Shown here piece by piece: positions 12,937-45,129 of a DNA stretch of 47,789 bases. Position 1 is the first letter of the stretch. Each line of letters opens with the position of its first letter. This DNA is from a virus. The position numbers were made by a program, and so were the translations under genes. A model generated the notes under the pieces. That model searched no databases, was not told the DNA's origin, and saw only the letters and a program-made list of their open reading frames with translations. Location: IMG/VR virus record IMGVR_UViG_3300010370_003461, positions 1-47,789 of that record; one strand, 5' to 3'.

Positions 12937-14502
12937 ATGAAAATTGTTAGTATTTTTGGTGGTCATGATGCAAATGTAACTTTTGTCGATACAGAAAAAA
13001 ATAAATATCATGTCATTGAAATAGAAAGACTAGTAAAAAAAAGATATTATCGTTTACATGGTGATTCACCTCAAACTATATTTGAAATTTTTTATAATTG
13101 TCAAAAAATTGCAGAAAAATATTGGAATTTTGATAATGATTATGATACATTAGTATTTGTAAAAGATGGTTGGATAGATTTACAAATTGTTTCTTCGGTT
13201 TTTAAATTTAAAAATATACAAGTTGAAGACCATCACCATTCACATGCAGCGTGTGCATTTTATCAATCCCCCTTTTCAGAATCAATGATAATATCGTATG
13301 ATGGAGGTGGTAATGATGGATTTTTTAATATTTATTTGGCAACAGATAACGGAATTACTCTGGTAGAAAAAATTAATTCTGATTTTGGTGGTGGTTATTT
13401 ATTGTTATCCTCTTGCTGTTCCGAAATAGCAAAGAGCAGTAAACACATGTTATCACTTGCGGGAAAAATGATGGGATTGTGCGCATATGGTAAAACAGAT
13501 TCAAAAAAAATAAAAATTATGAGAAATCTTTTTATAGATAAAAATTATAAAAAAGTTTCAGAATTAGGAAATTATAATTTAAAAAATGTAGATAATCCTT
13601 GGGACAATCCTTTAGAAAATTATATTTTTGAAGGTCAAGAGTCATTTGATTTTGCAGCAAATGCCCAAAAAGCATATGAAGATATGTTTTTAGAAATTTT
13701 TAATTTATTACTTAATAAGTATAATCCAAAAAATATTTGTTTGACTGGTGGTGGTGGACTAAATGTTTTATTAAATCAATATATTAAAAATAATTTTAAT
13801 TTAAATATATTTGTACCACCAAATCCAAATGACTGTGGTTTATCAATAGGTGCAGCATTTTTAACACACAAGCCAACAAATAAAATTAATATTGCATATA
13901 AAGGAATACCTTTATTGGATATTGATTATAAAGAAAAATTATTACAAAATAGAAAGACTGAACCAGTTAATTTAGAAAAAGTATGTCAATTGTTAAAATC
14001 AGGAAAAATAATTGGTGTATGTCAGGGTGATTCTGAAGTTGGACCAAGGGCATTAGGTAATAGAAGTATTATATGTGACCCTTCATATAAAAATATGAAA
14101 GATATTTTAAATGCAAAAGTAAAATTTAGAGAGTGGTATCGACCATTTGCTCCATTTTGTCTAGAAGAGGACGCCTCAACATATTTTGAAAGTAAAGACT
14201 TTAACAATATGGAATTTATGGGATACGCGCCAATTGTAAAAAAAGAATATAGAGAATCTTTGCCCTCTATAACTCACGTAGATAACAGCTCACGACTGCA
14301 AACAGTATCAGAATCCTCCCATAAATTTTTCTATGATCTATTAAGAGTTTACAAAAATTTTTCAAATATTCCAGTTTTGTTAAATACCTCATTTAATATA
14401 AGAGGAAATCCAATATTGACAACCATCGAAGATGCTTTGTATGTGTTAGATAATACGGAATTAGATTACGTCATCATCGAAGAGACTTTAGTGTGCAAAT
14501 GA
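12937..14502 (+). CDS. Carbamoyltransferase of the NodU/CmcH family
   Basis: 521 residues. The N-terminal Kae1-like half shows G-G-H-D-A-N near 9-14, the H-H-H-S-H-A-A-C motif near 99 with the expected catalytic His, and I-S-Y-D-G-G-G-N-D near 120. The C-terminal YrdC-like half has D-S-E-V-G-P-R-A-L-G-N-R-S near 364-376, W-Y-R-P-F-A-P near 401 and L-L-N-T-S-F-N near 488. Family enzymes use carbamoyl phosphate and ATP to carbamoylate a hydroxyl, often on a sugar (as on Nod factors). It lies in the sugar cassette, so a glycan substituent is likely. It overlaps the next gene by ATGA. Confidence 0.92.
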   Translation: MKIVSIFGGHDANVTFVDTEKNKYHVIEIERLVKKRYYRLHGDSPQTIFEIFYNCQKIAEKYWNFDNDYDTLVFVKDGWIDLQIVSSVFKFKNIQVEDHHHSHAACAFYQSPFSESMIISYDGGGNDGFFNIYLATDNGITLVEKINSDFGGGYLLLSSCCSEIAKSSKHMLSLAGKMMGLCAYGKTDSKKIKIMRNLFIDKNYKKVSELGNYNLKNVDNPWDNPLENYIFEGQESFDFAANAQKAYEDMFLEIFNLLLNKYNPKNICLTGGGGLNVLLNQYIKNNFNLNIFVPPNPNDCGLSIGAAFLTHKPTNKINIAYKGIPLLDIDYKEKLLQNRKTEPVNLEKVCQLLKSGKIIGVCQGDSEVGPRALGNRSIICDPSYKNMKDILNAKVKFREWYRPFAPFCLEEDASTYFESKDFNNMEFMGYAPIVKKEYRESLPSITHVDNSSRLQTVSESSHKFFYDLLRVYKNFSNIPVLLNTSFNIRGNPILTTIEDALYVLDNTELDYVIIEETLVCK

Positions 14503-30167: not shown

Positions 30168-30175
30168 GGATGACT

Positions 30176-31396
30176 ATGCACAATTTAACTCTTACTATGA
30201 TCGTCAAAAACGAGGCACCAAATATCAAGCGGTGCCTAGAATCAGTCGCAAAATACATCGATTACTATGTGATCGCTGATACAGGATCCATCGATAATAC
30301 CAAGCAGATCATCAAAGAATTCTTTGATGAAAAAGGTATTCCTGGAGAAATCTTGGATCACAAGTGGGAAGACTTCGGAACAAACAGAACGAATGTTCTA
30401 AAGCACTGCTACGGCAAGACAAAGTGGGCACTGATGATTGATGCCGATGATAATATCGAAGGCACTCTTCCAGTAGATAAGTTTGATGACAATCTTGATG
30501 GTTATGTTGTTAAGATTGTACGGGGAAATATGATTTGGTATCGTGCACAACTATTCAATCTTGGAAAGAAACAGTGGTGGTTTGAAGAGCCTCTGCACGA
30601 ATATGCTATTTGCGACCAACCCATGAATGTTCAACGTTTGGAAGGAGATTACTCTTGGAACGTTAGAACCGAAGGTTGTAGATCCAGAGAGGTAAACAGT
30701 GATCGTGAAAAATATGCAAGAGACTACTTCTTATTGAAGAAGTTTCTTGAAAAAGATCCTCAGTCAGTCCGCAAGCAATTCTATGCAGCACAGTCTGCGT
30801 TTGATGCTCAACTTTATGATGTAGCTGAAAAGGAATATCTTAAGAGAATTGAAATGGGCAATTGGCCAGAAGAGGTGTTCTACTCTTGGATTCGTGTGGG
30901 AATTTGCAGAGAAATTTTAGGTCGTCCATTGCCAGAAGTTGCTGATGCTTTTATGGCAGCATATGATGTCAGACCAAACAGAGCAGAAGCCCTTTATCAT
31001 CTTTCCTGTGTTTACAGAAAGCATGAAAGACCAAGAAATGCATTTATGATCGCCTCACATGCAATTACGATTGCTCCTCCAAAGGAAGATATTCTGTTTG
31101 TAGACCATGCAGTTTACAATTGGGGAATTTTGGATGAGATCGCAACCACAGCCTTCTATGTTGGTAGGATGCATATCGGTCTGGCAGCATGTGAAAAGCT
31201 ACTTTCTGAAAATCATCTCCCAGAAGAACATAGAGAAAGAATTAAGAAGAACAAAGAAGTTTATTTGAAAGCTGTTGCAGAATTTAATGAACAACAGCAA
31301 AAAGCTCTAGCAGAAAAGCACAAAATGATAGAGCAAAATTCAAATAAGACTACTTTGGGCGTAGATTTGAAGAAGGCAGAAGCCGTGACACTTTAA
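30176..31396 (+). CDS. GT2-type glycosyltransferase with TPR-like C-terminus
   Basis: 406 residues from the ATG at 30176, preferred because AAGGA lies at proper spacing; an earlier in-frame ATG at 30170 overlaps that site. The N-terminal T-M-I-V-K-N-E-A-P-N-I-K-R-C-L-E-S-V motif, I-A-D-T-G-S-I-D-N-T-K and L-M-I-D-A-D-D-N (D-A-D-D likely metal site) identify a GT-A family 2 enzyme. The C-terminal half is helical with Ala/Leu repeats like tetratricopeptides, as in SunS-like protein S/O-glycosyltransferases. It is directly before a terminator and the fibre genes. A protein target is possible. Confidence 0.82.
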   Translation: MHNLTLTMIVKNEAPNIKRCLESVAKYIDYYVIADTGSIDNTKQIIKEFFDEKGIPGEILDHKWEDFGTNRTNVLKHCYGKTKWALMIDADDNIEGTLPVDKFDDNLDGYVVKIVRGNMIWYRAQLFNLGKKQWWFEEPLHEYAICDQPMNVQRLEGDYSWNVRTEGCRSREVNSDREKYARDYFLLKKFLEKDPQSVRKQFYAAQSAFDAQLYDVAEKEYLKRIEMGNWPEEVFYSWIRVGICREILGRPLPEVADAFMAAYDVRPNRAEALYHLSCVYRKHERPRNAFMIASHAITIAPPKEDILFVDHAVYNWGILDEIATTAFYVGRMHIGLAACEKLLSENHLPEEHRERIKKNKEVYLKAVAEFNEQQQKALAEKHKMIEQNSNKTTLGVDLKKAEAVTL

Positions 31397-31462: not shown

Positions 31463-31858
31463 ATGAGCGCAAACTACGACATTTCTATCATCCAAGGAGA
31501 CAGTATTCGCTGGGCCATGTATTTTTCAGAAGGAAGCACAGCATACAATCTTTCTGGTTGCACGCTATCCATGCAATTAAGAAAGGGCTACTATCCGTCG
31601 TCTTTAGTTGCATCATATGTTATAAATGTTCCAAGTGGATTTACTGGTGCAACTATGCCAGAAGGCATATACGGTGGTTTATGCGCATCAGCAACAGGTG
31701 GAACGATTTATGTGTCAATTGGAGCTACTTATACGGGCCAGTTAACACCAAATTCTACACCAAAATATGATATCCAATTAATCGAACCAGTAGGAAATAC
31801 AGTTACCACAATTTTGAGAGGAACTATAGAAGTTCTAGATGAGGTTACAAGACTATAA
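31463..31858 (+). CDS. Virion structural protein (unknown), first of the fibre cluster
   Basis: 131 residues, with short strands and Ser/Thr/Gly-rich turns (I-S-I-I-Q-G-D-S-I, F-S-E-G-S-T-A-Y-N-L-S-G-C-T-L, M-Q-L-R-K-G). It resembles small phage baseplate or fibre-associated beta-sandwich proteins. It has a strong GGAG site, lies behind a terminator, and overlaps the next gene by one base. No specific family is assigned. It probably connects or precedes the fibre proteins. Confidence 0.6.
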   Translation: MSANYDISIIQGDSIRWAMYFSEGSTAYNLSGCTLSMQLRKGYYPSSLVASYVINVPSGFTGATMPEGIYGGLCASATGGTIYVSIGATYTGQLTPNSTPKYDIQLIEPVGNTVTTILRGTIEVLDEVTRL

Positions 31859-33246
31859 TGCCAGACGTTACTGTGAGTAATGATGGTCCATACCCACAAA
31901 TTAATGTTCAGATTGTTCCAGAAAAACCATCATTTACAGCCAACACAACTGTTAACCAACTAACTGTAGAAAATACAGGCGATTATCCCTCTTTAAATTT
32001 AAATACTGGAACTCAGTATCCAAGTTTAACAATTCTTCCACCCAGAGAAATTATTTTGGGTGGCGGTGGAGGTGGTGGTGCGGCTGGTACAGACGGTGCT
32101 CAAGGAACCCAAGGAACTCAGGGAACACAGGGATTACAAGGTATTCAGGGGCTTGTTGGCTTACAAGGAGATGCTGGGGATAGGTATAAAACAAACTCTT
32201 CTACTAGCCTAACAGTGGGAGCTCTGTCATCTGTTACATTAACAGTAACAGATAATAATCTCGCATATACACCAAAACAAGAAGTAATTGTTGTAAGTAC
32301 ATCTAATACAGCAGTTTATTTTAATGGAATAGTAAGTTCGTATTCTGGTTATACTTTAATTTTGTCGGTAACTAGTCAAACTGGAAGTGGAACATACGAT
32401 TCTTGGTCTATAAATTTAACTGGATTACAAGGTCCAGCAGGCAATACTGGTGCTACAGGTTCTATTAGTATAAATGAACAGCTATTTGATACAAATACAG
32501 GAATAACAAAATCTTCAAATTTTGTTAATGGAACTAGTGGTCTTGCAAGAAAATTGGTATTCTTAGCCCAAGATGGAAGTTTAACTTTTGATTATATAAG
32601 AAACTATGATGTGTTTAATCCAGCAGATTTAACATTTGCAATTTCAAGTTTTACCACAACAATTCCTTCTAATAACTTGATTGGTTCTGGAAACTTTACT
32701 TTAAATACAAGAACCGCAACAATTGCATATACAGCTGTTAGCATTCCTACTGGATTAACGTTATCTATATCGTCGGGATTTGGTTTCCCGATTACCGTTA
32801 ATTCACCTTACACTTCTTATTCATTTACCAGTGCTGCTGGAGTCACATATACAAGTCCACCACAAACAATAACATTAACAGCAACTGCTAGAAATGGTTC
32901 TGGGTCCAGTTCAGTTGCCACAACAACTTTTAGTTTTATAAACAATATTTACTATGGCATTTCAAGTTTAATATCTTTAACTTCCTCCGATGTAATAGCT
33001 TTAACTCCAGTTCTACAAAATTCTAAATCTTATACATTTACTATTACTTCTGGGGCTGGCCAGTATGTTTACTATGCCTATCCTTCAAGGCTGGGGACAG
33101 CAACGTTTACTGTTGGGGGTTTTGCAGGTGGTTTTGAGCCACCTGTAACTTTAAGTGTAACAAATTCAAATGGTTATGCAGAAAACTACTACATATATAG
33201 GAGTACAAACGCTAACTTGGGAACAAGAAACGTGGTTGTAACATAA
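31858..33246 (+). CDS. Collagen-like virion protein with a beta-rich C-terminus
   Basis: 462 residues. The N-terminus has repeated short strands with Y-P-x-(I/L)-N-(V/L) and a Gly run (about 68-74), then a collagen-like segment of G-T-Q, G-L-Q and G-I-Q triplets (about 79-105). The rest is beta-rich and Ser/Thr-rich and ends with Y-Y-A-Y-P-S-R-L-G-T, F-A-G-G-F and Y-Y-I-Y-R-S-T-N, a pattern common to phage fibre and adhesin C-termini. It directly follows the 31463 gene (one-base overlap) and precedes the giant fibre, so it is probably part of the same tail-fibre assembly. Confidence 0.75.
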   Translation: MPDVTVSNDGPYPQINVQIVPEKPSFTANTTVNQLTVENTGDYPSLNLNTGTQYPSLTILPPREIILGGGGGGGAAGTDGAQGTQGTQGTQGLQGIQGLVGLQGDAGDRYKTNSSTSLTVGALSSVTLTVTDNNLAYTPKQEVIVVSTSNTAVYFNGIVSSYSGYTLILSVTSQTGSGTYDSWSINLTGLQGPAGNTGATGSISINEQLFDTNTGITKSSNFVNGTSGLARKLVFLAQDGSLTFDYIRNYDVFNPADLTFAISSFTTTIPSNNLIGSGNFTLNTRTATIAYTAVSIPTGLTLSISSGFGFPITVNSPYTSYSFTSAAGVTYTSPPQTITLTATARNGSGSSSVATTTFSFINNIYYGISSLISLTSSDVIALTPVLQNSKSYTFTITSGAGQYVYYAYPSRLGTATFTVGGFAGGFEPPVTLSVTNSNGYAENYYIYRSTNANLGTRNVVVT

Positions 33247-33263: not shown

Positions 33264-36200
33264 ATGCCAATAGAACTTATTGACATAATCAAACAGGCAA
33301 ATCGCGCTGCAAACATAAGCGGGGCAGACTTCTTTTATCTGCTAGATTCTGTTGATATTGATTTTAAAATTGATGGTATACAGACAGACAATACTTTAGT
33401 TCCAGAATTAATTAAAAATAAAAAATATCTTATTAAAAATGCATCAAATTTGCATGCATCATTTGGAACTATAACTGGGCTCCAGAATAATGATATCGTA
33501 TTTTATAATTCAATTACACCGGGATTTGAGCTTTTTGTTGATGTAAGTAATTCTTTAACTCGTGGTGGCCAAATTGTTTATAATAAACCGGAAGGCCAGC
33601 TCTATTATTATGATGGAACAACCGGGAGCCAGCAATGGAAAGTTGTTGGGGTTGGAAGTGGAACTACGGGTGCTACCGGGGCTACGGGTGCAACAGGACC
33701 TGTAGGAAACACAGGAGCATCAATTACAAGTTTGTTCATAAATGATGGACACCTTTATTACATTATAACAGACGAAAATGGTGAAGCAGTTGTAGGTGAC
33801 GCTGGACTGCTTCCATTGGGTGCCACTGGTGCTCAGGGAGTCCAGGGTGTTCAGGGATATAGAGGCCATACTGGTTCTGTTGGTCCCGTGGGTTATGATG
33901 GTCGTAGAGGTGCACAAGGAACTCAGGGTGTACAAGGAATTCAAGGTCTCTTTGGTATACAAGGTTTCCAAGGGATTCAGGGTTTAGTTGGTTCACAGGG
34001 CATTCAAGGTATTCAAGGAATTTTGGGCTCTCAGGGTATTCAGGGTATTCAGGGATCGCAGGGTATTCAGGGGATTCAGGGATCACAAGGTATACAGGGA
34101 ATACAGTCCCCACAAGGATTGCAAGGTTTACAAGGACTTGCTGGATCTCAGGGAACTCAAGGTATTCAAGGAAATCAAGGAAACAGAGGCACAACAGGTT
34201 CAGTTGGTCCCGTGGGATACGACGGTCGTCGTGGTGCGCAAGGTATCCAAGGAACTCAAGGAGTACAAGGAAGACAAGGACTTCAAGGGTCTCAAGGTGT
34301 TCAGGGAATTCAGGGAGCAAAAGGTGATCCGGGATCAGGTAGTTCTGCTGGATACCACACAGGTTTAGTATATCAATATGACGAACCAGTTGGAAGTCCA
34401 GATTATCCGCAGCCCGGTGAATTCCAATTTAATATATGTGGAGGTCAAATTCCAGGAGACCCAACTCCAGCTCCATGTGTAAATAATGACTATACTCAAG
34501 TAACTTTACTTTTTATTCATAGTAAAGATTATCAAACAATTGGAATTTCTGGTTATATAGAAACTTGGTGGGGATCACCAAAAGATGTAAAAGGTTACAT
34601 CTACATTAAAGATAGAACTTTTACCACACCAGATTATAATCTTGTTTTTGAGGTGTATGATCAGGGAACTGGAACATACTATGAGTATAATAGTGCAAAT
34701 GATTATTTTGCAATTCCCATTCGTTATGTTGGTGGTTCAGCATTCCCCACGGATGGAAATCTTTATTCTATAAATTTTTATCCAACAGGATTTAGTGGTT
34801 TTACTGGTGGCAGTGGATCGGGGACACAGGGTTTACAGGGAGCTCAAGGACTACAAGGAAATCAAGGAATACAAGGACTCCAAGGAAGACAAGGGGTTCA
34901 AGGTATACAAGGTATACTTGGTACAAGAGGAAATACTGGTTCCGTAGGTCCTGTGGGTTATGATGGTCGTCGTGGTGCTCAAGGCGTACAAGGTATTCAG
35001 GGAATGTTTGGTGTTCAGGGTGTTCAAGGCATTCAGGGCTTACAGGGAACCCCGGGACAAGCTGCAGCACAAGGAATACAAGGTATTCAGGGTATTCTTG
35101 GTATTCAAGGCTTGCAGGGTATCCAAGGAATTCAAGGCCGTCAAGGAATTCAAGGAACACAGGGAATACAGGGAACTCAGGGTCTTCTTGGAATCCAAGG
35201 AATCCAAGGTATTCAAGGTATAGTTGGACCACAGGGTACGCAGGGTGTTCATGGTTCTCAAGGTTTAGTTGGTATACAGGGTATACAGGGAATACAGGGA
35301 GTTCAAGGAATACAAGGATACAAGGGAACCACAGGTTCAGTTGGTCCTGTAGGTTATGACGGTCGTCGTGGTGCCCAAGGTGTTCAAGGTATTCAGGGAA
35401 TGTTTGGTGTTCAGGGCATCCAAGGTATCCAAGGTCCACAAGGAACACCGGGACTGGCTGCGGCCCAAGGAATTCAAGGACTCCAAGGAATTCAAGGATT
35501 GCTTGGTATTCAAGGAATTCAAGGTATTCAAGGAATACAGGGAACGCAGGGAAGACAAGGAATCCAAGGAATTCAGGGAAACCAAGGATCCCAGGGAATC
35601 CAAGGAATTCAAGGAAACCAGGGTGCACAGGGCATTCAAGGAATTCTTGGTACTCAAGGTATTCAAGGTTTATTTGGTCCTCAAGGAACACAGGGTGTTC
35701 AAGGAATACAGGGTAACCGTGGCACAACAGGTTCAGTTGGTCCTGTAGGCTATGATGGTCGCAGAGGTCTACAGGGAGCACAAGGAGTTCAGGGACTACA
35801 AGGAACTTCTGGAACAGGAACACAAGGAATTCAGGGAATTCGGGGTTCTCAAGGAATTGTTGGTTCGCAGGGAATACAAGGAATTCGTGGCAATGATGGT
35901 CTACAGGGATTACAGGGAATTCAAGGTTCTCAAGGAATTATTGGTTCTCAAGGAATTCAAGGTATTTTTGGTATACAAGGTTTCCAAGGAATTCAAGGTT
36001 TAGTTGGTTCTCAGGGTGTTCAAGGTATACAAGGTATACTTGGTATAAGAGGAAATACGGGTTCAGTTGGTCCTGTAGGATACGACGGTCGCCGTGGTGC
36101 TCAGGGTATACAGGGTTTACAGGGCGTACAGGGCCGTCAAGGAATTCAGGGTATTCAAGGAAATCAAGGTTCACAGGGTATTCAAGGTATTCAGGGAACA

Positions 36201-39200
36201 AATGGTACCCAAGGTCTCCAAGGTATTGCTGGATCACAAGGAATCCAAGGTTTGCAAGGAAACCAAGGATCACAGGGCATACAAGGAATTCAAGGATTGC
36301 GTGGTTCCCAAGGCTTACAGGGATCGCAAGGAATTCAAGGAACACAAGGTCTTCAAGGTCCAAAGGGAGATTCTAGCTCAGGTTCTTCTGGTTATAATAC
36401 TGGTCTTCTATTCCAATATGAAGATCCAGCATTAATAATAAATCCTGGAAAATTCCAGTTTAACAACTGTGGATATCAATTACCTGGACCAGCAACAGGA
36501 TTGTGTCCACTTGGTGGCTCTGTAAATCCAGATGATCCATCTTTAATATTCATTCATAGCAGAGATGCAGATGCAATTGGATTGTCTGGTTATTTGAAGA
36601 CTTGGTGGGGATCGCCAGACGATGTTAAGGGGTATCTCTATATAAGAGAAAGAAAATTTGATACAGATAATTATATTCTTGCATATGAATTTTATGATGC
36701 AGACCCATCAAGTGGTGTTTATTATGAATATAATTCCACAGATGATTATTTTGCATTCCCAATCCGTTTTGTAGCGGGAACAACATTACCTACAGCTGGT
36801 ATAACATATACATTAAATTTTTATCCTACTGGATTTAGTGGTGCAACATCTGGTGGTATACAGGGAATTCAAGGAATTCAAGGATTTGATGGTGCACAGG
36901 GAATACAAGGCACTCAAGGAATCCAAGGTCGTCAAGGTATTCAGGGTATTCTTGGAATACAGGGTATACAGGGAATTCAAGGTATACAAGGTCGTCAAGG
37001 AATTCAAGGCATACAGGGAATTCGCGGTTTCCAAGGAATACAGGGCATCCAAGGCTTCCAAGGTTCACAGGGTATTCAAGGTATTCAAGGAATCCAAGGT
37101 ATTCTAGGAAATAGAGGAACAACTGGTTCTGTAGGTCCTGTTGGGTATGATGGTCGTAGGGGATTACAGGGAACTCAAGGAATTCAAGGAATTCAAGGAA
37201 TTCAGGGAAACCAGGGCTCACAAGGCATTCAAGGTATTCTTGGCTCACAAGGTTTACAAGGAATTCAAGGAAACCAAGGTTCGCAGGGCATTCAGGGAAT
37301 TCAAGGGAACCAAGGATCACAAGGCGTTCAAGGAATCCAAGGAATTAAAGGTGATAATGGAACTCAGGGTGTTCAAGGAATCCAAGGTTTAGCTGGAACT
37401 GGAACTCAAGGTCTTCAGGGAATTCGTGGTAATGATGGCTCTCAAGGTTTGCAGGGTATCCGTGGTAATGATGGCTCTCAAGGTTTGCAAGGAATTCAAG
37501 GTCGCCAAGGAATTCAGGGAATCCAAAGTCCACAGGGTATTCAAGGTATACAGGGTTTCCAAGGGTCACAAGGAATTCAAGGAATTCGTGGAAGTGACGG
37601 AACTCAGGGTGTACAAGGTATACAAGGAATTCGTGGAAATGATGGTTCTCAGGGAATTCAAGGAATACAAGGAACTATTGGTTCTCAGGGCATCCAAGGA
37701 ATTCAAGGCTTCCAAGGTGCTCAGGGCATCCAAGGAATTCAAGGAACTATTGGTTCACAAGGAATTCAAGGTATTGTAGGAAGTCGTGGAACTACAGGTT
37801 CTGTTGGTCCTGTAGGATACGATGGAAGAAGAGGTCTCCAAGGTCTTCAGGGGTTGCAGGGGGTACAGGGTAGACAAGGAATTCAAGGAATTATTGGTTC
37901 TCAGGGAACTCAAGGTTTACAGGGAATTCAAAGTCCTCAAGGAACTCAAGGTATTCAAGGTATCGCTGGTTCTCAGGGAACTCAAGGTCTCCAAGGAATT
38001 ATTGGCTCTCAAGGAACTCAAGGTCTCCAAGGAATTATTGGCTCTCAGGGAACTCAAGGTGTTCAAGGTATCATTGGCTCTCAGGGAATTCAGGGCACGC
38101 AGGGTATACAGGGAATCCAAGGAAATAGAGGAACAACTGGTTCTGTAGGTCCTGTTGGGTATGATGGTCGTAGAGGTTTACAAGGTATACAAGGAATTAT
38201 TGGAAGCCAGGGAATTCAAGGCATTCAGGGTATCCAGGGTCGTCAGGGTACACAGGGTCTTCAAGGTATACAAAGTCCCCAAGGAATACAAGGTATCCAG
38301 GGTATAGCTGGCTCCCAGGGAACTCAAGGTCTCCAAGGAATTATTGGTTCTCAGGGAACTCAGGGTTTACAGGGAATTCAAAGCCCTCAAGGAACTCAAG
38401 GTATTCAAGGTATTGCTGGGGCACAGGGAGCTCAGGGTGTACAAGGAATCCAAGGAATTCAAAGCCCCCAAGGGATACAAGGCATCCAAGGTATTCAGGG
38501 TCGTCAAGGAACTCAAGGTCTTCAAGGAATTATTGGTTCTCAGGGAACACAAGGTATCCAAGGTATTATTGGTTCTCAGGGAACACAGGGAATTCAAGGT
38601 ATTCAGAGTCCCCAAGGAACCCAGGGTCTACAAGGAATTATTGGTTCGCAAGGAACTCAAGGTCTACAAGGAATTGTTGGTTCGCAAGGAACTCAAGGTC
38701 TACAAGGAATTATTGGTTCTCAAGGAACGCAGGGAATTCAAGGAATTATTGGTTCTCAGGGAATACAAGGTATCCAAGGAATACTTGGCGCAAGAGGTAT
38801 AACAGGTTCAGTTGGTCCTGTAGGATATGATGGTCGTCGTGGTTTGCAGGGAATTCAAGGTATCCAAGGCCATCAAGGTATTCAGGGTATCCAAGGAAAT
38901 AATGGTGCTCAAGGTATTCAAGGAATTCAAGGGACAACCGGAACACAGGGTCTACAGGGAATCCAAGGAAATAATGGTGCTCAAGGTATTCAAGGTATCC
39001 AGGGAATTAGAGGCACTAACGGAACTCAGGGCATCCAAGGAATACAAGGTCTAGTTGGAATTGGAACTCAGGGTATTCAGGGAACCCAAGGAATTATTGG
39101 TTCTCAAGGTGTTCAGGGAATACAGGGAAATCGTGGGATTACTGGATCTGTAGGACCAGTTGGCTATGATGGCCGTAGAGGTCTCCAAGGTATTCAAGGA

Positions 39201-42200
39201 ATTATTGGTTCGCAGGGAATTCAAGGAACTGTTGGACCACAAGGAATTCAAGGTATACAGGGAATTCGCGGTTTCCAAGGAATACAGGGCATACAGGGAA
39301 TTCAAAGTCCCCAAGGAACTCAAGGTCTACAAGGAATTATTGGTTCTCAAGGAATACAAGGCATCCAAGGATTCCAAGGTTCACAGGGCATTCAAGGTAT
39401 TCAAGGTACTGTTGGTTCTCAAGGAATTCAAGGAATACAAGGAATTCAAAGTCCACAAGGAATACAAGGTATTCAAGGTAGTGTTGGTTCTCAAGGAATT
39501 CAAGGTATTCGTGGAAACACAGGAACACAAGGTGTCCAAGGTATTGTTGGATCTCAAGGAATACAAGGTATTCAAGGTAGTGTTGGTTCTCAAGGAATAC
39601 AAGGTATCCAAGGAACTTCTGGTTCTCAAGGAATACAAGGTATCCAGGGTAGTGTTGGTTCTCAGGGAATACAGGGAATTCAAGGGATTCAAAGCCCGCA
39701 AGGAACGCAGGGCATCCAAGGATTCCAAGGTTCGCAAGGAATTCAAGGAACTATTGGTTCACAAGGAATTCAAGGAATTCAAGGAAATCGTGGCACAACA
39801 GGATCTGTTGGTCCTGTAGGATATGATGGTCGTAGAGGTCTTCAAGGTATTCAGGGAATTCAAGGAATTCAAGGTCGTCAAGGAATTCAAGGAATTCAAG
39901 GTCAACAAGGGCAGCAGGGAATCCAAGGAATCCAAGGAATCCAAGGAACAACGGGAGTCCAAGGAATACAAGGTATCCAGGGAACAAATGGTGCTCAGGG
40001 TGTTCAAGGTATTAAAGGCGATAATGGAACACAAGGAATACAAGGTATTGCTGGTAGTGGATCGCAGGGTATACAAGGAATTCGTGGTGCAACTGGTTCA
40101 CAGGGAATACAAGGTATTCAAGGAAACCGTGGTACTACAGGTTCTGTAGGTCCAATTGGTTATGACGGTCGTAGAGGTCTTCAAGGAATTCAGGGAATTC
40201 AGGGTATCCAAGGTCGCCAAGGAATTCAAGGAATTCAAGGACAACAGGGAATACAAGGACTGATTGGAACTGGTACTCAAGGTATACAGGGTATACAAGG
40301 AATTATAGGGCAGCAAGGTATACAAGGAATTGCTGGTGGGGCTATACCAATCAGCGGTCCAAGTGGAAAAATTCTTTATAATAATAGTGGTACTGCTGTT
40401 GGTATTGATGGATTTGCATATGACAGTGCAACAAATACTATAAGTGGAACAGGCGTAACGATAAATGTAGGAAAACTAACGTCCCAAGAACTGGAAACAT
40501 TATACCCCGTCCCAGATCAAGCTAATTATTATGATTACTACAATCCAGATTATTATTCTACAACAGCAACAACGAAAGTTGCTCCTAGAAAATATTCTGA
40601 TATGGCTGGTGGAAATGTAAGTATTCCTGCAGTTTCATTGTATTCTTCTGGTTCAAATATAAGCCAAAGAGTAATACAATTAACAATTCAAGATCCAGAC
40701 CTTACTTTCCCAACAACATTTAATACTGGAGATACATTATGGGTTTCCAGAACAGCGTTTTCAACTACAACTGGAAGCACGGGTTATAGATCATATCTAA
40801 ATGAATATTTGGGTTCGACCTTTATAAATGATGGTATAACAAAAACTGTTTACCTCTATCAAACTAAAAAGTATACAATTGGTTTAGGTGGAAATCCAAG
40901 TTCATTTGAAGAGATTTTGGTTTCCGGTTTTACCGCGATGGTTGATACCACACTTGGTGAAACTGGATGGGTACGATATAATCTATTCAATAGTGGTGCA
41001 ACATATAACGTTTACATAGATTCTATAAATCCTTCTTATATTGATTGCAATGATATAATAACACCAGGTACATATCTGGTAAAACCAAAACTAGCTGGTA
41101 CAAATTCGAATATTTTGGAACAAATGAATACTGTTTATTGGTTACAAACAGTTCCTCCAGCTCCAGCAATATTCGATTTTAATAATGATCGTGTAATAAA
41201 TGGCAGTGACGTAGGATTACTGTTGGGTGCATGGGGTTCTGGTACGGATATTCAATATGAAAGATTTGCAAATTATCCTGGATCTACCTATACGCTACCA
41301 TTTAGCGTAATAACTAGTGGAATTTTCTTTATAGAAAATAAATGGTATGATTATAACATTGTAGCAGAAACTACAGCAAATAGTATTTATAGAATAGTAC
41401 ACCAAACAAGCCATAAATTTAGTATTGTAGGTGATCCAGTATCATCAGACGGATTTACAGCTTCTGTTGAAAAATATGAAAGATTTGGTAAATGGGTTTC
41501 TGAAGCTGATGGAGTAAAGGGATCCACAATATATTGGTCTTATTGGAATATTGCAGGAATTTCAGCACCAAGTGGATCGGGTACACAAGGAACGCAAGGT
41601 CTTCAAGGTACACAAGGATTTGATGGCGCACAGGGAATCCAAGGTATTCAAGGTATTATTGGTGGTCAAGGCATCCAAGGTATTCAAGGAAACCGTGGTA
41701 CTACTGGATCTGTTGGACCAATCGGTTATGATGGTCGTAGAGGTTTACAAGGCATCCAAGGCATCCAAGGAATTCAAGGTCGTCAAGGAATTCAAGGAAT
41801 TCAAGGTCAACAAGGGCAACAGGGAATACAGGGAATCCAAGGAAATCAAGGTTCTCAAGGAATTCAAGGAATTCAAGGAACAAATGGTACCCAAGGTATT
41901 CAAGGTATCAAAGGAGATAATGGAACACAGGGTGTTCAAGGAATAATTGGAAGCGGCATACAAGGCATTCAAGGAATAAAAGGTGATATTGGTCTTCAGG
42001 GAATCCAAGGTATTCAAGGAAACCGTGGTACTACTGGATCTGTTGGACCAATCGGTTATGATGGTCGCAGAGGTCTCCAAGGCATCCAAGGCATCCAAGG
42101 AATTCAAGGCCGTCAGGGTGTCCAAGGAATTCAAGGACAACAAGGAAATGCTGGAACTGGTTCTCAAGGTTTACAGGGAATTCAAGGTTTTGATGGAAGA

Positions 42201-43301
42201 CAAGGTATCCAAGGAATTCAAGGTTCTGTTGGTACGGCTACACAGGGCATTCAAGGCATTCAAGGTCCTTCTGGAACGGGTTCCCAAGGTATTCAGGGAA
42301 TTCAGGGTATTCAAGGTCGCCAAGGAATTCAAGGAATTCAAGGAATTATTGGAAGAGGTGTTACAGGTTCTGTAGGTCCAATCGGTTATGATGGTCGTAG
42401 AGGTCTTCAAGGCATCCAAGGCATCCAAGGTAGCCAAGGAATCCAAGGAATTCAAGGACAACAAGGAAATCCTGGAACCGGGTCACAGGGATTGCAAGGC
42501 ATCCAAGGCATCCAAGGTCGCCAAGGTATCCAAGGAATTCAAGGTTCTGTTGGTTCTGGAACACAGGGTGTTCAGGGTGTTCAGGGCATGGTTGGTCCTC
42601 AAGGAACCCAAGGTATATCTGGACAAGCTGCTTCACAGGGAATACAAGGTTCTCAAGGAATTCAGGGGATTCTTGGAAGAGGTGTTACAGGTTCTGTAGG
42701 TCCAATTGGTTATGATGGTCGCAGAGGTTTACAAGGAGTCCAAGGAATTCAAGGTCGTCAGGGAATTTCTGGTGTTACATTTATTCGCGATTTGCGACCA
42801 GTTGGTATTACAGCAGATGTAATTGGCGTACAAAATGGAGGATGGACTTTAGCTAAACCCAACGCAGCTTCTAAGCCTTTAGATGTTGGTCCAATATTAA
42901 CATGGGATTCAGGAACAAATACTTTACGCGATGCCACAACAACTGGACTAACTTTAACAAAAATTGGACAGGTTGCAAATATAGATGGATTTAATAATTA
43001 CGGTACTCCAAGTTTAATAATCGGTAGCGGAACATTTTTAGTTGATGTTATTGGATGGCTTTTTGCAGGATTAGGATCTAATGTTTTAAATAGAAGCATA
43101 TCACTCTATCAAGGTACAAATATTGATATTGTAAATACAAACCCTGTTTCTCCAGTGCCTGGACAGCCTGGATTCCAGTGGATAAACGACTGGAGTTTTA
43201 ACACGAGATATGTTACTGGTTATATAATAAAAATTAGCAATGATACAACAGGTGGAGTAACTGGCGGCGGTAACTACGGAAGATTCATACAACCCTTCTA
43301 A
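33264..43301 (+). CDS. Giant collagen-like fibre protein, 3,345 residues
   Basis: A single uninterrupted ORF of 10,038 bases. Residues 1-about 133 form an N-terminal head, probably the virion attachment end. Most of the rest is Gly-X-Gln collagen repeat (mainly G-I-Q, G-T-Q, G-L-Q and G-S-Q), poor in Pro and nearly free of charge. Seventeen copies of the module GSVGP(V/I)GYDGRRG punctuate it. Three globular inserts lie at residues about 360-519, 1037-1197 (paralogous pair) and 2359-2772 (with a dockerin-like Ca-binding motif). Residues about 3170-3345 form a non-collagen C-terminus, a likely trimerisation or receptor-binding domain. Start ATG has no clear ribosome site. It could be a long tail fibre; host attachment or glycosylation is inferred. 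Confidence 0.9.
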   Translation: MPIELIDIIKQANRAANISGADFFYLLDSVDIDFKIDGIQTDNTLVPELIKNKKYLIKNASNLHASFGTITGLQNNDIVFYNSITPGFELFVDVSNSLTRGGQIVYNKPEGQLYYYDGTTGSQQWKVVGVGSGTTGATGATGATGPVGNTGASITSLFINDGHLYYIITDENGEAVVGDAGLLPLGATGAQGVQGVQGYRGHTGSVGPVGYDGRRGAQGTQGVQGIQGLFGIQGFQGIQGLVGSQGIQGIQGILGSQGIQGIQGSQGIQGIQGSQGIQGIQSPQGLQGLQGLAGSQGTQGIQGNQGNRGTTGSVGPVGYDGRRGAQGIQGTQGVQGRQGLQGSQGVQGIQGAKGDPGSGSSAGYHTGLVYQYDEPVGSPDYPQPGEFQFNICGGQIPGDPTPAPCVNNDYTQVTLLFIHSKDYQTIGISGYIETWWGSPKDVKGYIYIKDRTFTTPDYNLVFEVYDQGTGTYYEYNSANDYFAIPIRYVGGSAFPTDGNLYSINFYPTGFSGFTGGSGSGTQGLQGAQGLQGNQGIQGLQGRQGVQGIQGILGTRGNTGSVGPVGYDGRRGAQGVQGIQGMFGVQGVQGIQGLQGTPGQAAAQGIQGIQGILGIQGLQGIQGIQGRQGIQGTQGIQGTQGLLGIQGIQGIQGIVGPQGTQGVHGSQGLVGIQGIQGIQGVQGIQGYKGTTGSVGPVGYDGRRGAQGVQGIQGMFGVQGIQGIQGPQGTPGLAAAQGIQGLQGIQGLLGIQGIQGIQGIQGTQGRQGIQGIQGNQGSQGIQGIQGNQGAQGIQGILGTQGIQGLFGPQGTQGVQGIQGNRGTTGSVGPVGYDGRRGLQGAQGVQGLQGTSGTGTQGIQGIRGSQGIVGSQGIQGIRGNDGLQGLQGIQGSQGIIGSQGIQGIFGIQGFQGIQGLVGSQGVQGIQGILGIRGNTGSVGPVGYDGRRGAQGIQGLQGVQGRQGIQGIQGNQGSQGIQGIQGTNGTQGLQGIAGSQGIQGLQGNQGSQGIQGIQGLRGSQGLQGSQGIQGTQGLQGPKGDSSSGSSGYNTGLLFQYEDPALIINPGKFQFNNCGYQLPGPATGLCPLGGSVNPDDPSLIFIHSRDADAIGLSGYLKTWWGSPDDVKGYLYIRERKFDTDNYILAYEFYDADPSSGVYYEYNSTDDYFAFPIRFVAGTTLPTAGITYTLNFYPTGFSGATSGGIQGIQGIQGFDGAQGIQGTQGIQGRQGIQGILGIQGIQGIQGIQGRQGIQGIQGIRGFQGIQGIQGFQGSQGIQGIQGIQGILGNRGTTGSVGPVGYDGRRGLQGTQGIQGIQGIQGNQGSQGIQGILGSQGLQGIQGNQGSQGIQGIQGNQGSQGVQGIQGIKGDNGTQGVQGIQGLAGTGTQGLQGIRGNDGSQGLQGIRGNDGSQGLQGIQGRQGIQGIQSPQGIQGIQGFQGSQGIQGIRGSDGTQGVQGIQGIRGNDGSQGIQGIQGTIGSQGIQGIQGFQGAQGIQGIQGTIGSQGIQGIVGSRGTTGSVGPVGYDGRRGLQGLQGLQGVQGRQGIQGIIGSQGTQGLQGIQSPQGTQGIQGIAGSQGTQGLQGIIGSQGTQGLQGIIGSQGTQGVQGIIGSQGIQGTQGIQGIQGNRGTTGSVGPVGYDGRRGLQGIQGIIGSQGIQGIQGIQGRQGTQGLQGIQSPQGIQGIQGIAGSQGTQGLQGIIGSQGTQGLQGIQSPQGTQGIQGIAGAQGAQGVQGIQGIQSPQGIQGIQGIQGRQGTQGLQGIIGSQGTQGIQGIIGSQGTQGIQGIQSPQGTQGLQGIIGSQGTQGLQGIVGSQGTQGLQGIIGSQGTQGIQGIIGSQGIQGIQGILGARGITGSVGPVGYDGRRGLQGIQGIQGHQGIQGIQGNNGAQGIQGIQGTTGTQGLQGIQGNNGAQGIQGIQGIRGTNGTQGIQGIQGLVGIGTQGIQGTQGIIGSQGVQGIQGNRGITGSVGPVGYDGRRGLQGIQGIIGSQGIQGTVGPQGIQGIQGIRGFQGIQGIQGIQSPQGTQGLQGIIGSQGIQGIQGFQGSQGIQGIQGTVGSQGIQGIQGIQSPQGIQGIQGSVGSQGIQGIRGNTGTQGVQGIVGSQGIQGIQGSVGSQGIQGIQGTSGSQGIQGIQGSVGSQGIQGIQGIQSPQGTQGIQGFQGSQGIQGTIGSQGIQGIQGNRGTTGSVGPVGYDGRRGLQGIQGIQGIQGRQGIQGIQGQQGQQGIQGIQGIQGTTGVQGIQGIQGTNGAQGVQGIKGDNGTQGIQGIAGSGSQGIQGIRGATGSQGIQGIQGNRGTTGSVGPIGYDGRRGLQGIQGIQGIQGRQGIQGIQGQQGIQGLIGTGTQGIQGIQGIIGQQGIQGIAGGAIPISGPSGKILYNNSGTAVGIDGFAYDSATNTISGTGVTINVGKLTSQELETLYPVPDQANYYDYYNPDYYSTTATTKVAPRKYSDMAGGNVSIPAVSLYSSGSNISQRVIQLTIQDPDLTFPTTFNTGDTLWVSRTAFSTTTGSTGYRSYLNEYLGSTFINDGITKTVYLYQTKKYTIGLGGNPSSFEEILVSGFTAMVDTTLGETGWVRYNLFNSGATYNVYIDSINPSYIDCNDIITPGTYLVKPKLAGTNSNILEQMNTVYWLQTVPPAPAIFDFNNDRVINGSDVGLLLGAWGSGTDIQYERFANYPGSTYTLPFSVITSGIFFIENKWYDYNIVAETTANSIYRIVHQTSHKFSIVGDPVSSDGFTASVEKYERFGKWVSEADGVKGSTIYWSYWNIAGISAPSGSGTQGTQGLQGTQGFDGAQGIQGIQGIIGGQGIQGIQGNRGTTGSVGPIGYDGRRGLQGIQGIQGIQGRQGIQGIQGQQGQQGIQGIQGNQGSQGIQGIQGTNGTQGIQGIKGDNGTQGVQGIIGSGIQGIQGIKGDIGLQGIQGIQGNRGTTGSVGPIGYDGRRGLQGIQGIQGIQGRQGVQGIQGQQGNAGTGSQGLQGIQGFDGRQGIQGIQGSVGTATQGIQGIQGPSGTGSQGIQGIQGIQGRQGIQGIQGIIGRGVTGSVGPIGYDGRRGLQGIQGIQGSQGIQGIQGQQGNPGTGSQGLQGIQGIQGRQGIQGIQGSVGSGTQGVQGVQGMVGPQGTQGISGQAASQGIQGSQGIQGILGRGVTGSVGPIGYDGRRGLQGVQGIQGRQGISGVTFIRDLRPVGITADVIGVQNGGWTLAKPNAASKPLDVGPILTWDSGTNTLRDATTTGLTLTKIGQVANIDGFNNYGTPSLIIGSGTFLVDVIGWLFAGLGSNVLNRSISLYQGTNIDIVNTNPVSPVPGQPGFQWINDWSFNTRYVTGYIIKISNDTTGGVTGGGNYGRFIQPF
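34341..34820 (+). other. Globular insert 1 of the giant fibre
   Basis: About 160 residues without Gly-X-Y register: W-G-S-P near 432, then Y-I-Y-I-K-D-R, Y-Y-E-Y-N-S and F-Y-P-T-G-F-S-G strands. It is clearly paralogous to the insert at 36372 and is probably a beta-sandwich knob exposed on the fibre. Confidence 0.75.
36372..36854 (+). other. Globular insert 2 of the giant fibre (paralogue of insert 1)
   Basis: About 161 residues sharing F-Q-F-N, T-W-W-G-S-P, D-V-K-G-Y, Y-Y-E-Y-N-S, D-D-Y-F-A and F-Y-P-T-G-F-S-G-(F/A)-T with insert 1, with different loops. This looks like duplication of a domain within the fibre, followed by divergence. Confidence 0.75.
37991..38744 (+). repeat. Local near-identical 36-base tandem repeats in the collagen gene
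   Basis: Units coding I-(I/V)-G-S-Q-G-T-Q-G-L-Q-G repeat nearly exactly around 37991-38090 and again at 38637-38672 and 38673-38708, continuing into 38709-38744. The two middle units differ at one base in an Ile/Val codon. Elsewhere the repeats are scrambled by synonymous changes, so these blocks look like recent slippage or recombination copies. Confidence 0.75.
40338..41579 (+). other. Globular insert 3 of the giant fibre
   Basis: About 414 residues, opening with G-G-A-I-P-I-S-G-P-S-G-K-I-L-Y-N, then many Ser/Thr and aromatic strands, a dockerin-like Ca-binding motif at 41175 and a C-terminal part with W-Y-D-Y-N-I-V. It probably forms one or more folded domains exposed on the fibre and may carry receptor or partner binding. 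Confidence 0.65.
41175..41237 (+). other. Dockerin-type Ca-binding motif in insert 3
   Basis: Residues 2638-2658 read D-F-N-N-D-R-V-I-N-G-S-D-V-G-L-L-L-G-A-W-G. Acidic or Asn residues at positions 1, 3, 5, 9 and 12 and the following L-L-L-G-A-W-G are typical of a single dockerin type I repeat. True dockerins carry two such repeats; only one is seen. Confidence 0.7.
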
Positions 43302-43317: not shown

Positions 43318-45129
43318 ATGTTCTTTGGAAAGAACAAAAAAACTCTAAAACTGATAAAGCAACACCCAGAAATGTTGTCGGGTGCTACTTATCATATTAT
43401 AGAGTCTGCTTCAAATCCAAAGATTGTAAAAATTGGCTCTGGTATCAGCCAGCTTTATTTGCGTGATGAGTATGGTGAAACATATCTTATTGAAGGAAAC
43501 GCAACAAAAATTAAAGATCATTTTCAGCCAGTTTTAATGTTTGAAAATATCGAAGGTCCGATATTTAAAGTAAAAAGACCAATTGGTTCGCTTCTTCAAA
43601 ATTCTTTACTAAAAGAAACAACAGCACTTACTGCAGATGAAAAAATATATGCGGGAAATGGAGTAACTGAAAGGTACTTCATAGAAAAAAATACCAATAA
43701 AGTTGTCAAATTTATTGGAAACTCTTCACATATTAAAAATTTAATTGAAGAGCAGATTGTACCAAAGCCAAAACCAATTATAGAAAAGCCTGCTGAAAAA
43801 CCACTAATCCAGATTGTTGAAAAAACTGTCGTAAAAGAAATAATTCCACAAGCAGGATCTCAGGGCATTCAAGGAGAAAGGGGAACTCAAGGTGATGTTG
43901 GACCAATTGGGCCCAGAGGCGAGCAAGGAATTCAAGGACCAGTTGGACCAAAGGGAGATAAAGGCGATAGAGGAGAAATTGGTCCACATGGCGAGCGTGG
44001 AACCAAAGGTGAAAAAGGAGATCCTGGACTAAAAGGAGAGAAAGGTGATAAAGGCGATAAGGGGGATGTTGGAGAAATTGGTCCACAGGGTCCTGTTGGT
44101 CCTGTCGGAGCACAGGGACCACAAGGTGTGCCAGGAGAACAAGGCATACCCGGTCAAGATGGAATTCAAGGTGAAGTTGGTCCTGCGGGGGCAGCTGGTC
44201 CCCAAGGTCCGCGTGGAGAAAAAGGAGATAAAGGTGATAGAGGACTTGTGGGCCCTCAAGGTCCTATTGGACCAAGAGGCGAGGTTGGCCCAGCTGGACC
44301 ACCAGGACAAGATGGAAATGCACCTGTAATTGAAGCTCAGTTTCCGCTTATATTAGAGGATGGTGTTCTTTCTTTTGATTCAGAACATGTTTCAAATGTT
44401 CTTGATAAATTTAAAAACACGGATATACAGAATGCAATAAATAAACTTTCAAACATGAGCACACCAGGTGGCGGTGGTGCGGTTGATATTGCATTGAATG
44501 GTGATAAGGTTATTCGTTCAGTAAATACAATTAATTTTACTGGAAATAATATAACAATAACAAGAAGAAGAAAAAATGTTGACATAGGAATTTCTGGTGG
44601 TGCCTCTAATATTTCTGTTAAAGGCACACAGGGAATGATTCAGGTTGCGGACAATGCTGGTGATCTTGCGGTAAACACAAACTTTAAATTAGATACGGCA
44701 ACAGAAAATTTAACTGTACCTAATGGAATAAAATTATTAGCTGGATATTGTGGTTATATTGAATTCCCCGATGGAACAACCCAATCAACAGCAGCATTTA
44801 GCTCTGCTGGTGCAACAGGACCACAGGGAAACACTGGTGCAACTGGGCCAATTGGTAATACTGGTGGCACAGGTTCAATAGGTGAAACTGGGCCACAAGG
44901 AAACACTGGTGCAACTGGTTCTCAGGGACCACAAGGAAACACTGGTGCAACTGGTTCTCAGGGGCCACAAGGAAATACAGGAAACACGGGTGCAACTGGT
45001 TCTCAGGGACCGCAAGGAAACACTGGTGCTACCGGAGCAATCCCAACAGACTATGTAATTTCTGTAGATGGAGTTACTGGAGCCGTAAATTTAAAACCCT
45101 TTATTATAGCAATGTCCATCGCATTATGA
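43318..45129 (+). CDS. Charged collagen-like fibre protein
   Basis: 603 residues. About 1-179 is a folded N-terminal region (start M-F-F-G-K-N-K-K, later Y-L-I-E-G-N-A-T). Residues about 180-336 are a classical charged collagen (G-E-K, G-D-K, G-P-Q, G-E-R triplets), unlike the neutral Gln-rich giant fibre. After a beta-rich part (about 337-495) a second run of G-A-T-G and G-P-Q-G-N-T repeats (about 497-573) leads to a C-terminal end [15 protein letters not shown], a pattern common at the tip of phage fibres. A strong TAGGAG site precedes the ATG. It is probably a second fibre or fibre tip. Confidence 0.82.

Follow-up and report, generated by a model that had tools for sequence, protein, structure and literature searches.

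Modules spaced mostly by about 111 or 222 residues in the giant collagen-like fibre of a T4-like phage

The locus described here raises the question of what keeps a triple helix in register when it comes from a bacterium or virus, runs to thousands of residues and is poor in proline. It lies in IMG/VR virus record IMGVR_UViG_3300010370_003461, whose 47,789 bases were analysed as a whole and are called the window below. The window carries T4-type genes (portal, major head protein and gp46/47-like genes) and its major head protein finds its best matches, of about 52-53%, in marine Synechococcus myophages. Photosystem genes were searched for in a relative of 137 kb and none were found there, by which a cyanobacterial host is neither shown nor ruled out.

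Among these structural genes and next to a second collagen fibre, in an order that is syntenic in relatives, a single open frame (Table 1) matches PF01391 with 128.1 bits against a cut-off of 27.2 (stretch 36000-37200). Judged from its sequence, the product is a collagen-like fibre protein of giant size from a T4-like phage. Globular parts form its N and C termini, and between them runs a Gly-X-Y shaft of about 2266 residues that three globular inserts interrupt. We infer that this is the long shaft of a trimeric host-recognition fibre with triple-helical fold. The rise per residue in an extended collagen helix is 0.286 nm, which would give a fully extended shaft of about 648 nm. Over 715 triplets the X position is occupied by Ile in 41% and by Pro in 3.4%, and the Y position by Gln in 69%. 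Because Gly-Ile-Gln-type repeats give little to fix register, a rare conserved node could set it.

Relatives, terminal domains and neighbouring genes

Pattern scans of viral contigs for the module described below led to three records with a module fibre, besides unrelated matches to the loosest pattern. These IMG/VR relatives are L013 (3300047550_001945, close), L014 (3300043772_003410, diverged, with the gene cut by the contig end) and L009 (3300042453_003743, distant), and by synteny the fibres of all four phages are orthologous. They differ in unit number, in the presence of insert 1 (absent in L014), in the length of insert 3 and, for L009, in looser spacing. Six further viral matches to a relaxed pattern were unrelated collagens or another cyanophage-type fibre, and the one match in a genome contig (L030) arose by chance, in Caldilineaceae DNA that has no collagen frame at that place. 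Searching phage records with the module unit by tblastn gave no match, which is no proof of absence since BLAST filters low-complexity sequence. The downstream gene led to 56 loci, all scanned for the module fibre and 11 of them listed; where upstream DNA suffices, the module fibre occurs only in these phages and different fibres occupy the slot elsewhere. L014 is missing from these loci, since its contig breaks off within the fibre gene.

The C-terminal domain as query led to six loci, namely L013 and five others of the same clade. In the fibres of these five the shaft is of the proline/threonine type, counts 63-660 collagen residues and lacks modules. The node thus goes with the proline-poor shaft, because fibres with the same ends and proline-rich shafts are without it. 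One of the five (L079/L090, IMG/VR 3300044608_000548) encodes a fibre of 1597 residues with the same N- and C-terminal domains and a GPTGATGQTG shaft, which by its sequence is a case of shaft swapping between conserved ends.

The non-collagen sequence at both fibre ends is conserved between phages. The N-terminal domain weakly resembles (32-43%) structural proteins from the virions of Erwinia phage Y3, Pseudomonas phage PaBG and Bacillus phage PBS1 and is presumed to be the virion-attachment end, the C-terminal domain being presumably the receptor-binding or trimerising end. Inserts 1 and 2 are paralogous in sequence, as would follow from a domain copied or moved within the shaft. No Pfam match was obtained for insert 1 or insert 3, and none for insert 3 among phage records; the insert lengths follow boundaries drawn in this analysis. 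AlphaFold2 gave a mean pLDDT of 41 for insert 1 and of 34 for the N-terminal domain. Insert 3 contains at 41175-41234 (+ strand) a dockerin- or EF-hand-like stretch, DFNNDRVINGSDVGLLLGAW, the form of which is conserved in the inserts of L013 and L009; we take this DxNxDxxINxxDxxxxxxxW stretch to be dockerin-like, and calcium binding by it is possible.

Directly upstream of the giant fibre (31858-33246, + strand) a shorter fibre-like protein of 462 residues with a short collagen stretch is encoded, 87% identical in L013 and 77% in L014; the L009 contig matches it only over the short collagen stretch. Downstream (43318-45129, + strand) follows the second collagen-like fibre of 603 residues, a module-free protein with many Pro, Lys, Glu and Arg residues, which is conserved in 56 syntenic virus loci and may belong to the same virion fibre system. 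A Nol-like carbamoyltransferase gene (12937-14502, + strand) and a beta-1,4-glycosyltransferase-like gene (30170-31396, + strand) lie near the fibre region and resemble in this the host-recognition islands of other aquatic T4-like phages.

Table 1. Features of the giant fibre gene (positions in the window)
Feature	Position	Strand	Remark
Giant collagen-like fibre gene	33264..43301	+	3345 aa, single open frame
N-terminal globular domain	33264..33659	+	residues ~1-132; 99% identical in L013, 80% in L014
Module 1	33870..33911	+	TGSVGPVGYDGRRG
Module 2	34194..34235	+	
Domain insert 1	34341..34787	+	149 aa; absent from L014
Module 3	34935..34976	+	
GQAAAQG break, first 132-residue unit	35055..35075	+	GLAAAQG in second unit at 35451-35471
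Module 4	35331..35372	+	
Module 5	35727..35768	+	
Module 6	36057..36098	+	
Domain insert 2	36375..36854	+	160 aa; insert 1 paralogue, 59% identical
Module 7	37122..37163	+	
Arg near midpoint module site, 224-residue interval	37461..37463	+	second Arg at 37503-37505
Module 8	37794..37835	+	
Module 9	38136..38177	+	
Arg at midpoint module site, 222-residue interval	38502..38504	+	
Module 10	38802..38843	+	
Module 11	39141..39182	+	
Arg at midpoint module site, 219-residue interval	39510..39512	+	
Module 12	39798..39839	+	
Module 13	40137..40178	+	first with Ile
Domain insert 3	40344..41579	+	412 aa
Module 14	41703..41744	+	
Module 15	42033..42074	+	
Module 16	42363..42404	+	
Module 17	42687..42728	+	
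C-terminal globular domain	42774..43301	+	homologous in L013 and five other fibres of same clade

The module and its spacing

A preliminary description of this DNA had counted seventeen copies of a module, and all seventeen are present, from the first GSVGP at 33873 to the end of the last module at 42728. Its core, TGSVGP[V/I]GYDGRRG, is identical in all window copies save for V/I at one position. The conserved part is longer than first described, since an invariant Gly lies two residues before TGSVGP and the residue that precedes this Gly is Arg in 16 copies and Lys in one, giving a full module of 19 residues, G-x-R-G-x-T-G-S-V-G-P-(V/I)-G-Y-D-G-R-R-G. Both that residue (position -3) and the second R of RR (Arg in 17/17) are at Y of Gly-X-Y, and each module has two Gly-x-Arg/Lys-Gly sites 15 residues apart. 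That the module is the main positively charged site of the shaft was likewise borne out: windows of 18 residues on the modules contain 50 of the 81 shaft Arg, together with all 19 Tyr and 17 of the 38 Pro.

Most intervals between modules are about 111 or 222 residues, as expected from the spacing of about 330 bases or its double that had been proposed. In residues they read 108, 247, 132, 132, 110, 355, 224, 114, 222, 113, 219, 113, 522, 110, 110 and 108, and after subtraction of the three inserts 108, 98, 132, 132, 110, 195, 224, 114, 222, 113, 219, 113, 110, 110, 110 and 108. The two 132-residue intervals, already noticed as 396-base gaps off the simple multiple, are true exceptions. The best period is 110.5-111 residues. 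None of 4000 random placements was as regular by the gap statistic at any of four minimum gaps, and by the lattice statistic 0, 0, 1 and 4 of 4000 were; with the first 12 modules alone, 7/4000 reach the regularity.

The autocorrelation suggested earlier as a check gave a divided answer. Plain residue identity lacks a peak near 110, its signal being drowned by G, Q and I; Tyr, Arg plus Tyr, charged residues and nine rarer residues peak near 110 and 220. For Tyr, Arg plus Tyr or charged residues the peaks lie at 109-112 and 218-223, which 0/200 shuffles reach. When the modules are masked no peak near 110 remains, and therefore the superperiod is carried by the modules and not by the whole shaft; a 111-residue periodicity of the body between modules is ruled out by this. 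A super-repeat of 222+114 residues in intervals 7-12 was also rejected, the bodies of intervals 7, 9 and 11 being no more alike than other pairs.

The relatives have comparable intervals. L013, with 16 modules, has 108, 248, 135, 132, 113, 352, 224, 114, 222, 113, 219, 110, 601, 110 and 108 residues, and L014, with 13 modules before the contig end, has 108, 111, 135, 135, 110, 351, 222, 114, 222, 114, 222 and 111. The eight variant modules of L009 are separated by 110, 190, 217, 205, 203, 225 and, with an insert, 710 residues. In the tests across phages intervals with inserts were dropped, so that 13/16 intervals of the window, 11/12 of L014 and 6/7 of L009 were used; the regularity of L014 is reached by 3/5000 random sets and that of L009, which is weak (best period 105), by 209/5000.

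In the long intervals a trace of the missing middle module is found. Its RR would fall at the midpoint plus 10.5 residues, and an Arg lies within 3.5 residues of this position in 10 of 11 insert-free intervals of 190-225 residues (three in the window, three in L014 and five in L009, L013 being left out as near-identical to the window), and at 10 residues in the remaining one. This is reached by 0/20000 random placements, by 0/300 when any position may be chosen, and with single-genome P of 0.017, 0.047 and 0.023 after correction for position choice, for a pattern that was noticed before it was tested.

The inserts sit within units. Interval 6 has its insert in the window, L013 and L014 (355, 352 and 351 residues). 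Interval 2 has 247 residues in the window with insert 1 and 111 in L014 without it, and insertion 1 thus added 136 residues to a unit of 111. The summed collagen residues flanking inserts are 106, 201 and 111 in the window, 106, 198 and 126 in L013, 195 in L014 and 219 in L009, only roughly 111 or 222. Besides the inserts the shaft contains Gly-to-Ser breaks of the form GIQSPQG, ten in the window (34107-39701, + strand), nine in L013, eleven in L014 and none in L009, some of which are at the same distance (45, 102 or 108 residues) from the module in the window and in L014.

Conservation, copying and exchange

In the window, L013 and L014 all 46 modules have the same 14 residues save V/I, and in L009 all eight conform to G[SA]VGP[VAI]G[YF]DGRRG. 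Their DNA is very diverged. Synonymous distances (dS, NG86, globular parts) are 1.2-1.7 between the window and L014, that is saturated, and 0.06-0.15 between the window and L013. Orthologous modules of the window and L014 have 5.9 of 14 codons in common, non-orthologous ones 6.4, and 6.0 are expected from codon usage. Between units of the window residue identity peaks on the module alignment (after the module 0.63 vs 0.58-0.61 one triplet off, before it 0.53 vs 0.45-0.46), and codon identity is no higher at aligned than at shifted places. What is conserved in the modules is the protein, not the DNA.

The lengths are conserved as well. Comparison of the spacing in homologues, which the preliminary description had called for, came out in two ways: L014 keeps lengths and order, and L009 is looser with 190-225 residues. 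Between the window and L014 the intervals differ by 0, -3, -3, 0, 4, 2, 0, 0, -1, -3 and 2 residues in the same order (11 of 12 intervals, interval 2 with insert 1 being dropped), and the identity of the bodies is no higher in orthologous (0.57-0.76) than in non-orthologous intervals (0.63-0.79). Interval lengths are thus conserved beyond what saturation would leave. Triplet indels do occur in the collagen parts, since six are seen between the window and L013 at about 10% synonymous change, including in interval 1 one of +3 and one of -3, which together bring the length back to 108. A random walk at this rate, scaled 11-15-fold, gives a sum of squares of about 600-800 vs 52 observed, with P of 0.00135 at 11-fold and 0.00035 at 15-fold divergence, and of 0.21 at 2-fold and 0.09 at 3-fold, all resting on six indels from one alignment of repeats. 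This result fits alike a requirement for spacing and a shaft that in general tolerates no change of length, and SPQ breaks within some intervals (45, 108 and 102) have kept their places too.

The earlier alternative of a structural ruler or a history of copying is therefore only partly decided. For a ruler speak the lengths and order kept between the window and L014 and the midpoint Arg. Against its strict form with 111 residues speak the conserved 132/135 units, L009 and the globular domains of 149-412 residues that interrupt the lattice. The 132/132 pair of the window is 135/132 in L013 and 135/135 in L014, and because all three closer phages keep these units at 132-135, 111 is not required. 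Apparently the spacing is an inherited and protected design feature.

Copying has left its marks in the unit number, in a shared break and in exact runs. The window has 17 modules and L013 has 16, the extra unit being C-terminal, and a PG(Q/L)AAAQG break is common to both 132-residue units of the window and both 135-residue units of L014. Window units 12 and 14 are alike in 89% of amino acids, and 66% of the residues that they share use the same codon. At modules the longest exact runs measure 65 nt (14-15 in the window), 54 nt (7-9 in the window) and 77 nt (5-7 in L014); such runs coincide with modules or extend across them, in units that are neighbours or lie further apart. Otherwise the units are not near-identical at the DNA level (body identity 0.61-0.89 in amino acids, codon identity mostly at baseline), so that copying is visible only in the C-terminal units and some modules, and recent copying as sole cause of the period is ruled out by the scrambled codons. 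A gross assembly artefact is unlikely because the longest exact direct repeats in the genes have 53-77 nt, as judged from assembled sequence.

Between the window and L013 synonymous mismatches are more frequent in modules (33/182) than in bodies (126/1287; Fisher P 0.0013), as counted in the first 13 of the 16 L013 modules, the later ones not being orthologous one to one, and in 10 of 12 body intervals, 2 and 6 being dropped. A raised mismatch is expected if modules are overwritten from other units. Modules 2, 6 and 13 carry 18 of the 33 mismatches, and modules 3 and 6 share 13/14 codons in L013 and six in the window. It looks like module DNA is exchanged between units.

Origin and role of the lattice, and comparison with known collagens

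The account that we prefer joins what was observed, namely regular spacing, a module and interval lengths conserved as protein, units gained or lost, and a signal of exchange. The shaft would have grown by copying an old unit of some 110 residues (330 bases), or about 37 Gly-X-Y triplets, with one 19-residue module, which selection on the protein would keep. In most intervals of about 220 residues the middle module would have been lost with only an Arg left, and selection against length change would preserve the distances from module to module. Whole units could still be gained or lost and module DNA swapped between units. As a whole we consider this probable, and any single function of the module much less so. 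The three chains may zip into a triple helix from one end, and in a shaft that is elsewhere nearly without proline or charge the module may be a register or folding clamp, or a docking point via Tyr and the Y-position Arg; a node that combines Tyr, Asp and Arg at Y could hold the chains in register, nucleate folding or bind a partner. An alignment of the Arg pairs in a trimer model, proposed earlier as a check, would be trivially true in any in-register homotrimer. In host-guest peptides NR, PV and RR triplets are favourable for stability and YD is poor, so that simple stabilisation by a general clamp is an incomplete answer.

The strongest competitor is history alone, in which a 330-base unit was copied often, the spacing persists since shaft indels are rare or generally harmful, and the function of the module needs no fixed distance. 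It accommodates the gain or loss of units, the residual copy signal of units 12 and 14, the conserved odd lengths of 132/135 and the loose spacing of L009, but it has to face the triplet indels that do occur, with the pair restoring 108, and the midpoint Arg of the long intervals. We regard it as possible, though on the whole unlikely.

Less credit still can be given to docking, in which a phage or host protein, for example an HSP47-like folding helper that reads Y-position Arg, would bind the module. The paired Gly-x-Arg/Lys-Gly sites of each module would suit it, as would the five clade fibres with the same C-terminal domain, proline/threonine-rich shafts and no modules; Arg at Y of Gly-X-Y is described as the key residue for HSP47 binding on collagen in the cited part of PMC8301893. 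The module has such an Arg, but binding is an analogy only as no HSP47 is known for this phage and no partner is known, and L009 does not retain the GxRG site that precedes the module.

An improbable further reading is lateral assembly, with fibres that bundle or fold back, staggered by some 111 residues (about 32 nm), and modules pairing with modules; the quantised single and double spacing, the Arg left at the missing position and the confinement of aromatic and charged residues to the module would agree with it, but three globular inserts interrupt the lattice, and neither the 132 class nor L009 fits a common stagger. That the repeats are recombination or regulatory sites with the protein motif as a by-product is very improbable and already largely refuted, for in spite of the exact runs on modules and their raised synonymous divergence, which suggest DNA exchange, the module codons are scrambled as if chosen at random (between paralogues and between window and L014) while the residues are unchanged.

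Going beyond the preferred account of copied and selected units, one may suspect a phage-evolved, sequence-encoded axial repeat in a shaft of up to about 650 nm, where an aromatic-plus-arginine node in every 37 triplets (about 32 nm), kept through saturated divergence, sets register or partner binding in sequence almost devoid of proline, and doubles as DNA anchor for unit gain or loss; this wider picture we hold to be doubtful. The four related phages with near-fixed motif spacing offer natural experiments in their unit insertions, domain insertions and intervals with missing modules. The role of the module is testable in short recombinant collagen segments with and without it, and a possible route to long synthetic collagens without hydroxyproline would follow the same lines.

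Fibrillar animal collagens have a D-period of 234 residues, and their charge and hydrophobic patterns set the stagger. Like them the window fibre would be a long helix with a sequence-encoded repeat of charged sites; unlike them its period is about 111 and is carried by one discrete motif, known here from sequence and not from fibrils. In the full text of open-licence PubMed Central papers, a body outside which most subscription papers lie, no description of a comparable module lattice was found.

Closer in kind are the side-tail-fibre proteins EPclA-D of E. coli O157:H7 prophages, which according to the cited part of PMC3368898 are trimeric, with Gly-X-Y shafts between globular domains and triplet breaks. 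The window fibre shares phage origin, shaft between globular domains and breaks with them, and its trimer is inferred. It differs from them in its shaft of about 2266 vs 322 residues, the longest collagen part among EPclA-D, in an X-position proline of 3.4% vs 48% (22% in viral collagens) and in the presence of Tyr, that part of EPclA-D having no Tyr or Phe; nor does the same part of that paper mention a periodic module. The host-recognition cluster of pelagimyophages and cyanomyophages is described in part of PMC7029224 as a hypervariable structural region with triple-collagen-repeat proteins. With it the window has in common a T4-like phage with fibres, glycosyltransferases and collagen repeats, a likeness by features that does not imply membership of the group, and a module or superperiod is, unlike in the window, not described in that part. 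Collagen-like fibres are already known and common in phages; the module lattice would be new.
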